A stretch of DNA of 64,000 nucleotides from Fructilactobacillus cliffordii (GTDB taxonomy: Bacteria > Bacillota > Bacilli > Lactobacillales > Lactobacillaceae), in assembly GCF_024029355.1 (NCBI RefSeq), contig NZ_CP097117.1, forward strand, positions 248,001-312,000, written 5' to 3'. Position 1 is the first letter of the stretch. The number at the start of each line of letters is the position of its first letter. The translations under genes were made by a program, and so were the position numbers. The notes below the pieces were generated by a model. It searched no databases and had not been told where the DNA came from. It worked only from the letters and a program-made list of their open reading frames with translations. Positions 10,709-12,950 of this stretch are shown here, one piece after another.

Positions 10709-10737
10709 ATCATATCAAGGCTACAATTACTTGTCAA
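10709..10737 (-). promoter_or_regulatory. Promoter of infC-rpmI-rplT
   Basis: Minus strand TTGACA, 17 bases, TATGAT. The -35 hexamer is made of the last sense codons of thrS (Val-Asp-Lys), so the promoter overlaps the end of that gene. Confidence 0.9.
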
Positions 10738-12703
10738 CCTTTTCTTTTGTTTTATCATCTTTAGTCTCATCGCGTGAGTAACTAGCGATGTCTTTCATGA
10801 TTTCAACCGTGAAGTCATCCATTGATAACTCCCGACTGTCGTCTTCTCCGTACTTACGAACCGAAATCGTGTCGTTGTTAACTTCATCGTCACCAACCAC
10901 AATTGTGTATGGAATTTTGTGCGTCTGCGCATCCCGAATTAAGTAACCCATCTTTTCGGAACGTTCGTCAACTGCCGACCGGATGTGCATGGCTTGCAGT
11001 TTTTCATTGATTTGGCGCGCGTATTGACCGTGTTTTTCATCACTAACTGGAATGATTTGCACTTGTTTTGGTGCTAACCAAGTTGGGAAAGCTCCCTTGT
11101 ACATTTCAATTAGGTAAGCCGTGAACCGTTCCATCGTTGAAACTAAACCACGGTGAATCATAACGGGACGGTGTTCTTGACCGTCTTCCCCCACGTAGTG
11201 TAAATCAAACCGTTCAGGTAGCATGAAGTCCAGTTGAATCGTTGACAACGTTTCTTCGTTGCCAAGGGCCGTCTTCGTTTGTACGTCTAGTTTAGGACCG
11301 TAAAAGGCTGCTTCCCCTTCGGCTTCGACGTAGTCTAACCCTAATTCATCCATGGCACCCTTCAACATCGTTTGCGCTTTGTTCCACATTTCGTCATCAT
11401 CAAAGTATTTTTCCGTGTTTTCTGGATCACGGTAACTAAGCCGGAACGTGTAGTTGTCAATGTCAAAGTCATGGTAAACTTCCATCATCAAGTTCAGGAT
11501 CTTCTTAAATTCATCCTGGATTTGATCCGGAGCCACAAACGTGTGACCATCGTTAAGCGTCATTTCCCGAACCCGTTGCAATCCACTGAGGGCTCCCGAT
11601 TTTTCGTAACGGTGCATCATTCCTAGTTCTGCAATCCGGAGTGGTAATTCCCGGTAAGAACGGATGTGGTGGTTGTAAATTTGAATGTGGGAAGGACAGT
11701 TCATCGGCCGTAATTCCAACATTTCATCGTCGTCCATTTTCATTGGTGGAAACATGTCATCACGGTAGTGTTCCCAGTGACCAGACTGTTTGTACAGATC
11801 CAAGTTAGCAAGGACTGGAGTATAAACGTGTTGGTAACCGTTAGCAACTTCCTTGTCAACAATGTAACGTTCAATCGTCCGCCGAATCGTAGCCCCGTTT
11901 GGCATCCAGTATGGTAATCCAGCTCCGACCTTTGGATCAACGAAGAACAGGTCTAAGTTATTTCCAATCACCCGGTGATCACGTTCGCGGGCTTCTTGCC
12001 GTTTCTTTAAGTCTGCTTCTAAGTCAGCAGCTTTGAAAAAGGCCGTTCCGTATAACCGTTGTAACATGGGGTTAGACGACTTGCCTTCCCAGTATGCTCC
12101 GGCTACAGATAACAGTTTAAAGTGCTTTAAATCCTTAAGACTAGGAGCAGCAACAACTTGAGCGTAGACTAATTGACCACCAATTTCGTAGAAAGGAATT
12201 TCATCACTATCAAGTGTCTTGATTAATTCCGTCTGGTATCGATCACCACTAACTTCATTTAAAGCATCATCTTTGCTTAAAGTTACTCGTTTAACGGATG
12301 CGTTATCCTTGATGACCCGCTGCATCTTGTCAGCTAGGCCATTTAATTCATCGGCACTAATTTGCCGTTCATCTTTTTCCGTATCAACGTAAAATCCGTC
12401 TTCATCAGCAGCTAAGCGACCAAGTCGAACTCCGGGAAATTCTCGTTTTACTACCGCTGCCAGTAGTTCAGCTGCACTTTGGCGTAACACAGTTAAACCA
12501 TCTTCTGAATCAGCCGTAATAATTTCTAACTTACCACCAGCCGTTAACGGAGCTTGGACGTCCACTAACTGACCATCAACTTTTCCGGCAATGGCTTTTT
12601 TAGCTAAGCTAACTGAGATTGATTTAGCAATTTCAGCAATCGTAATTCCATTCTCAAACGCTTGGTTGCGTCCGTCTGGAAATTCAAACGTAATTTGTGC
12701 CAT
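10727..12703 (-). CDS. thrS: Threonyl-tRNA synthetase with degenerate editing domain
   Basis: Class II synthetase that charges tRNA-Thr; 658 residues from the ATG preceded by GGAGG at seven bases. The open frame continues 36 codons upstream into the T-box and that part is not coding. Domains: TGS (1-62), N2 editing domain (about 63-220), catalytic core and anticodon-binding domain. Core zinc ligands are kept (Cys in RPMNCPSH, His in NDGHTF, His in VMIHRG). In the editing domain the HxxxH pair of E. coli (His73, His77) is Gln75 and Glu79 (LRQSAAELL), and the DMCRGPH motif is replaced by VYAQVVA (179-185), so proofreading of Ser-tRNA-Thr should be lost. Confidence 0.96.
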
Positions 12704-12915
12704 TTTCATTCCTCCTAAATAAAAAGCCCCCTGGTAAAAATACCAAGGGACGTCGTTTTGACGCGGTTCCACCCAAATTATCCGAAAATCGGATATCTCT
12801 GTTAACCACATTTATTCACGTTATTTTAAGTAAGGCGGTAAGTTAAATCCGCCGACAAGTAGCTTCCAGAATTAAACTACTCTCTCTGTGAATTTAGATT
12901 TAACTCATATCCTTA
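12704..12915 (-). promoter_or_regulatory. T-box riboswitch leader of thrS
   Basis: The T-box sequence GGGTGGAACCGCGT is at 12761-12774 and is followed by a terminator hairpin CCCTTGGTA / TACCAGGGG with a U-run (12721-12749). Stem III TATCCGA-TTT-TCGGATA precedes it and Stem I closes with ATTCAC / GTGAAT. Uncharged tRNA-Thr is expected to promote readthrough. The Thr specifier codon is not resolved by eye; ACT or ACC in the 3' half of Stem I are candidates. Confidence 0.93.
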
Positions 12916-12921
12916 TTTAGT

Positions 12922-12950
12922 AGTCTAATCACCCGACGAAAAAGTGTCAA
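12922..12950 (-). promoter_or_regulatory. Promoter of thrS
   Basis: Minus strand TTGACA, 17 bases, TAGACT, right after the dnaI stop codon. Confidence 0.88.

Follow-up and report, generated by a model that had tools for sequence, protein, structure and literature searches.

Loss of editing by threonyl-tRNA synthetase (ThrRS) has been described in mycoplasmas, in one cyanobacterial copy and in yeast mitochondria (PMC7373986, PMC4787780, PMC4267643). The mycoplasma enzyme has an editing domain that is degenerate, according to PMC4787780, PMC7373986 and PMC4014445, all of which cite Li et al. 2011. Mollicutes also have a single ThrRS gene, YbaK, ProX and AlaX are reported missing from them and other editing domains are changed (PMC4014445). 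ThrRS T2 of Anabaena, with its degenerate N2 editing domain, has an editing-competent partner, T1, and the same paper predicts, from an insertion, that ThrRS editing is impaired in mycoplasmas and in high-G+C Gram-positives (PMC4787780). The yeast mitochondrial enzyme MST1 (3ugq) combines a normal catalytic core with the absence of post-transfer editing domain activity, and has no N2 (PMC4267643). One paper among PMC7373986, PMC4787780 and PMC4267643 suggests that selection acts against a ThrRS that misacylates when it has to serve as the housekeeping enzyme. For lactobacilli, no title or abstract start among the papers listed from the open full-text literature describes loss of ThrRS editing (the subscription literature lies mostly outside this scope), and in three of the papers that contain both Lactobacillus and ThrRS editing terms the genus name appears only in a reference (PMC6765224), in a sentence on tRNA-Ile with a reference (PMC9976931) and in a figure legend on tRNA-Tyr (PMC13206607).

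Here we have analysed the thrS gene found in a 64,000-nt stretch of DNA from Fructilactobacillus cliffordii (the window), whose genome forms one contig of 1,459,401 bases. The gene product resembles the mycoplasma enzymes, since it is the sole ThrRS of its genome and retains N2 while its editing residues are gone; the earlier note on this DNA had mentioned such a loss in mycoplasmas, as PMC4787780, PMC7373986 and PMC4014445 indeed report. The surroundings differ from those described for Mollicutes: a mycoplasma-type genome would have no free-standing editing proteins, whereas the host genome encodes a YbaK-type protein and a DTD, its AlaRS keeps HxxxH and CGGDH, and its PheRS B3/4 and LeuRS CP1 domains lie above the Pfam cut-offs (domain scores of 214 and 219 bits). 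A degenerate N2 is shared with Anabaena T2, which has T1 at its side, whereas the host has one ThrRS at E <= 1e-60. As in MST1, a normal catalytic core is predicted to go with the absence of post-transfer editing domain activity, but the N2 that MST1 does not have is present here, predicted to be folded and under selection. The ThrRS of S. aureus (1nyq) has the same four domains and, unlike the window enzyme, keeps HxxxH and DLCRGVH.

Results

The thrS gene lies on the minus strand (the earlier note gave no strand) at 10727..12703, a span across which the plus strand is not open, and encodes a complete ThrRS of 658 amino acids, present in single copy and identified by Pfam, NCBIfam (TIGR00418, 654 bits against a cut-off of 384) and phmmer. 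AGGAGG stands at good spacing, 7 nt ahead of the ATG at 12703. The longest in-frame ORF spans 694 amino acids, so an upstream start is possible, although the MAQIT start of the 658-residue form coincides in the alignment with the start of S. aureus ThrRS. From their translations, we take the downstream neighbours to be infC and rplT and the upstream one to be dnaI. The protein comprises an N1/TGS domain (residues 8-63, 12515..12682, minus strand; PF02824, 44.9 bits), the N2 editing domain (about residues 64-225, 12029..12514, minus strand, with bounds set in this analysis), the class II catalytic core (residues 324-535, 11099..11734, minus strand) and the anticodon-binding domain (residues 547-632, 10808..11065, minus strand; PF03129, 72 bits). 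The TGS, class II core and anticodon matches are all above the Pfam cut-offs; tRNA_SAD reaches 15.8 bits against a cut-off of 24, and only the C-terminal part of that profile was matched. A putative T-box leader precedes the gene on the same strand (12743..12922; RF00230, 53.3 bits, E 1e-10, below the gathering score of 93), as it does in the two relatives tested (45.6 bits in L004 and 63.5 bits in L009). Judged by eye, its specifier loop has ACC (Thr) on the 3′ side. Such a leader senses uncharged tRNA, and Ser-tRNA-Thr would mislead the sensor.

Comparing the protein with the E. coli enzyme, the earlier note had claimed that the residues of the editing site have been replaced. Alignments by phmmer against 1nyq and 1qf6, and by MAFFT, bear this out: Gln75 (CAA, 12479..12481, minus strand) and Glu79 (GAA, 12467..12469, minus strand) stand at E. 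coli His73 and His77, and the heptapeptide Val179-Tyr-Ala181-Gln-Val-Val-Ala185 (12149..12169, minus strand) stands at D180-M-C182-R-G-P-H186, with Val179, Ala181 and Ala185 at the positions of D180, C182 and H186. The 11 residues 93-103 (12395..12427, minus strand; MAFFT) are found where the GxGPxI loop is expected, in agreement with the loop loss that had been noted. The phmmer alignment to 1nyq is gap-free across both motif blocks; N2 lacks the HxxxH and DxCxxxH that mark an editing-competent ThrRS. The zinc ligands for aminoacylation, Cys336 (11696-11698), His387 (11543-11545) and His517 (11153-11155), lie within the class II core on the minus strand and are intact, again as claimed. A predicted model of the protein aligned with S. 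aureus ThrRS 1nyq over residues 4-645 at 53% identity and its N-terminus matched 1tje; N2 is present and folded in this model, and some stretches of the modelled catalytic domain are weak.

In E. coli ThrRS, the substitution C182A/S lowers the editing kcat over 500-fold, H73A 7000-fold and H186A 70-fold (PMC4041444), and all three residues are missing from the window ThrRS. By analogy with these mutants, post-transfer editing, that is, hydrolysis of Ser-tRNA-Thr in cis, has very probably been lost. The proposal that the enzyme charges tRNA-Thr without clearing Ser-tRNA-Thr is supported by the alignment, the predicted fold and the published mutants: its aminoacylation half would be normal, and N2, stripped of its catalytic residues, would be unable to hydrolyse Ser-tRNA-Thr.

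The search for a second ThrRS or a free editing-domain protein that the earlier note had proposed was carried out on the whole host genome. It returned one ThrRS, one SAD protein at E <= 0.001 (AlaRS, with HxxxH and CGGDH kept, and no second one at this threshold) and two INS-domain proteins, namely ProRS and one free-standing protein of the YbaK type. There is one DTD, which also occurs in 8 of 14 control genomes.

The distribution of the loss was examined at several levels. In a scan of named GTDB genomes, restricted to the best 80 of 127 relatives (chosen by sequence similarity and so not sampled at random), none of the 21 Lactobacillaceae loci was canonical and all 59 loci from outside the family (from Bacillaceae, Staphylococcaceae, Listeriaceae and Aerococcaceae, among others) were, a split that is not due to chance. 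The closest named relative among the matches listed is Fructilactobacillus lindneri (83% identity), followed by F. sanfranciscensis, F. fructivorans and F. florum. Inside the family, a ThrRS was matched at E <= 1e-60 in 140 of 141 genomes: 139 contain a single one, G042 contains two, and G064, which is 65% complete, is the genome without a match. We read 130 loci, drawn from 129 of the 140 and covering all 40 genera; one of the 11 genomes left out belongs to the canonical genus g20. Three states were found. A canonical editing site is present in the four loci read from g20 (L171, L172, L176, L177), the sole such genus among the 40. Twenty loci from seven genera (g2, g7, g8, g17, g19, g29, g39), which look to us like the Leuconostoc-Weissella side of Lactobacillaceae, have HxxxH, Glu or Asp at 180, Asp182 and Leu186. 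In the remaining 106 loci (32 genera) neither C182 nor H186 occurs even once and H73 and H77 are never found together, while the zinc ligands are retained in 106/106. The largest genome read with loss of the editing site measures about 3.5 Mb (G108). The earlier note was right about the residue loss and spoke of lactobacilli only in general terms; it missed the scale (full loss in 32 of the 40 family genera read), the Asp182/Leu186 form of seven genera and the selection on the dead domain described below.

Some ThrRS in the family have unusual N-termini. Those of genus g3 (L157, L158, L166, L168, L178, L181) and of genus g6 (L175, L179, L182, L187) start near N2, seemingly without TGS, and no TGS match was obtained in L166 and L187, the two short forms scanned. 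The two genes of G042 are L157 and L158, and the editing residues are missing from both.

Outside the family, a DNA pattern for D-x-C-R-G-x-H was scanned genome-wide, so that matches need not all lie in thrS, and a reversed-pattern control gave occasional chance matches. The pattern was found in 1 of 48 family genomes (G019, of genus g20) versus 244 of 247 genomes of eight other Lactobacillales families; two of the three misses have a canonical site with Lys183 and the other (89% complete) has no ThrRS match. At class level 127/131 genomes matched, and among 40 loci read from 39 genomes 39 were canonical, the exception being L335, one of two ThrRS copies in G910 (class Bacilli), which has HQDYQ at the five editing positions and has thus lost the site; the other copy of G910 has the motif by pattern. 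Across the phylum only 167 of 398 genomes matched. We followed up 77 of the 231 pattern-less genomes (the host's own among the 231), about one per family, together with the three misses in the order. A ThrRS match was present in 73 of these 80, and all 70 loci read were canonical (three short matches were left unread), so the apparent phylum-wide absence is an artefact of the pattern. The strict pattern, good within the order, is misleading as a census tool for the phylum because position 183 varies, with Ala, Thr, Ser, Lys or others often found there. No mollicute is known among the phylum and class samples.

A tree of 53 rows was built from the catalytic and anticodon domains, leaving N2 out. 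The 32 genera with full loss form one clade (support 95/95), indicating that full loss occurred once, and their sister group consists of the Asp182/Leu186 genera plus g20 (96/89). Because canonical g20 sits beside g19, with weak support (82/45), the Asp182/Leu186 change needs two steps in this tree; one single change is found in 7% of bootstrap trees. To judge by these sequences, the Asp182/Leu186 change is separate from the full loss and would have taken one or two steps.

Conservation inside N2 was then scored at the 49 columns that seven reference enzymes share without variation. H77, P96, C182, R183, H186 and R207 are retained in none of the 106 clade members, and V187 (1/106), H73 (10/106), K156 (36/106) and D180 (53/106) only in part; the clade has G, S, A, E, T or V at 182 and F, Q, L, A, V, I, N, E or Y at 77. 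Scaffold positions such as F102, D105, G203-Y205, Q216 and R217 are retained in 106/106, and many positions of this kind in 104-106. Mean pairwise identity in N2 and the catalytic domain is 0.46 and 0.85 in the clade, 0.74 and 0.85 in the Asp182/Leu186 genera and 0.67 and 0.79 in five outgroup rows, giving ratios of 0.54, 0.87 and 0.85, with 0.94 for the canonical genus. The Asp182/Leu186 genera retain HxxxH, K156 and R207 in 20/20 loci and their N2 is otherwise well conserved. Within genera, dN/dS of N2 ranged from 0 to 0.23 in 47 clade pairs; whole-gene dS of these pairs was 0.05-1.2, and since N2 dS went above 1.2 in some of them, individual values are approximate. Drift of a useless N2 is rejected by these ratios, far below 1, which indicate that N2 is still needed.

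Discussion

Alongside the residue loss, its distribution, the predicted fold, the selection on N2, the unchanged zinc site and the single ThrRS per genome, the simplest reading, which we infer, is that Ser-tRNA-Thr is tolerated; the earlier note had put this forward as one of two possible consequences, next to a separate trans-editing factor, and either may hold. The full loss would have arisen once, in the stem of the 32-genus Lactobacillaceae clade, and the N2 scaffold would have been retained since it still helps to keep the enzyme in shape and to hold the acceptor arm of the tRNA. In this regard, deletion of the editing domain from yeast ThrRS impaired charging, possibly via acceptor-stem binding (PMC4267643); selection on N2 would also fit a new function. 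Because misactivated serine would not be cleared in cis, some of it is most likely incorporated at threonine codons and put up with. Taken jointly, a sole ThrRS with a dead N2, a single loss in the stem, a scaffold-kept N2 and tolerated serine make up the account that we consider probable. Against it stand the partial retention of D180, K156 and H73 in the clade, the weak stretches of the model, and the presence of a YbaK-type protein that could act in trans.

Several other explanations were weighed. Clearance of Ser-tRNA-Thr in trans by a separate protein is unlikely, though the least so of these alternatives. The candidate is the 165-residue YbaK-type INS protein (L003:1465-1962, minus strand; PF04073, 71.8 bits), matched in all 19 family genomes searched, and the proteins ProXp-ST1 and ProXp-ST2 of the same superfamily hydrolyse Ser- and Thr-tRNAs, tRNA-Thr included (PMC11295145). 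However, its occurrence extends beyond the clade and did not begin with the ThrRS loss, since a match is also present in 111 of 129 genomes from the other Lactobacillales families, whose ThrRS editing motif is present by pattern. Its motif HGANTPIGI is close to HGANNPVGI of a streptococcal family (f4), its best NCBIfam match is YbaK/EbsC (TIGR00011, 137.6 bits, just below the cut-off of 153.25), its nearest solved structures are YbaK proteins, and YbaK has been described as acting on Cys-tRNA-Pro with ProRS (PMC7373986). We thus rejected a clade-specific trans-editor, as this protein is common to motif-keeping families, DTD also occurs in 8/14 controls and there is no second SAD protein at E <= 0.001. 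Somewhat less probable still is that fidelity resides in the aminoacylation site, through stronger rejection of serine or pre-transfer hydrolysis of Ser-AMP. Yeast mitochondrial ThrRS, without N2, performs tRNA-dependent pre-transfer editing, but it still forms Ser-tRNA-Thr in vitro (PMC4267643). The zinc ligands show no clade-specific change, and the six clade-specific columns in residues 228-639 lie elsewhere, at sequence positions 255, 256, 265, 373, 376 and 494, with the Bacilli residue in the clade at 373 and 376. Compensation at this site was set aside on these sequence comparisons.

Purifying selection on N2 could also be read as a re-tooled site, in which other residues catalyse or another substrate is bound. 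The N2 of the Asp182/Leu186 genera, as conserved as the canonical one (ratio 0.87), suits a changed but working site there, and their form is possibly just that, to judge by its residues; in the window's clade no conserved replacement exists at the lost positions, 182 and 77 being variable, which makes a re-tooled site very improbable. Even further from likely is an artefact of alignment or assembly, for which we found no point: besides the gap-free alignment to 1nyq, the result is the same in 21/21 named family records and in the 106 loci. As to what might have driven the loss, lactobacilli make H2O2, as do aerococci and streptococci. Cys182 of E. coli ThrRS is oxidised by H2O2 (PMC4041444). 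Oxidation alone fails to explain the loss, given that H2O2-making Aerococcus (two loci read) and, by pattern, other Lactobacillales families are canonical, and H2O2 was rejected as the driver.

Serine tolerance following a single ancestral loss remains the account that we prefer, and we lean slightly towards its broadest form, in which most of the lactobacillus family would have lacked ThrRS proofreading from an early stage of its history and would have, for want of that proofreading, proteomes with standing serine at threonine positions. If true, a free-living, industrially central family without ThrRS proofreading would break the picture of a trait that is selected against, and lactobacilli look like a counter-example to the statement in the Anabaena paper (PMC4787780). 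It would rank with the most extensive natural losses of a synthetase editing step in free-living organisms, in genomes of ordinary size and with other editing domains in place. The family offers a natural experiment among close relatives, with one canonical genus, seven with Asp182/Leu186 and 32 in which the site is erased, and genus g20 is a natural control for experiments. Tolerance of mistranslation, and cover for ThrRS by the YbaK-type protein, thereby become directly testable with non-hazardous laboratory strains, and protein production in lactobacilli may be affected.
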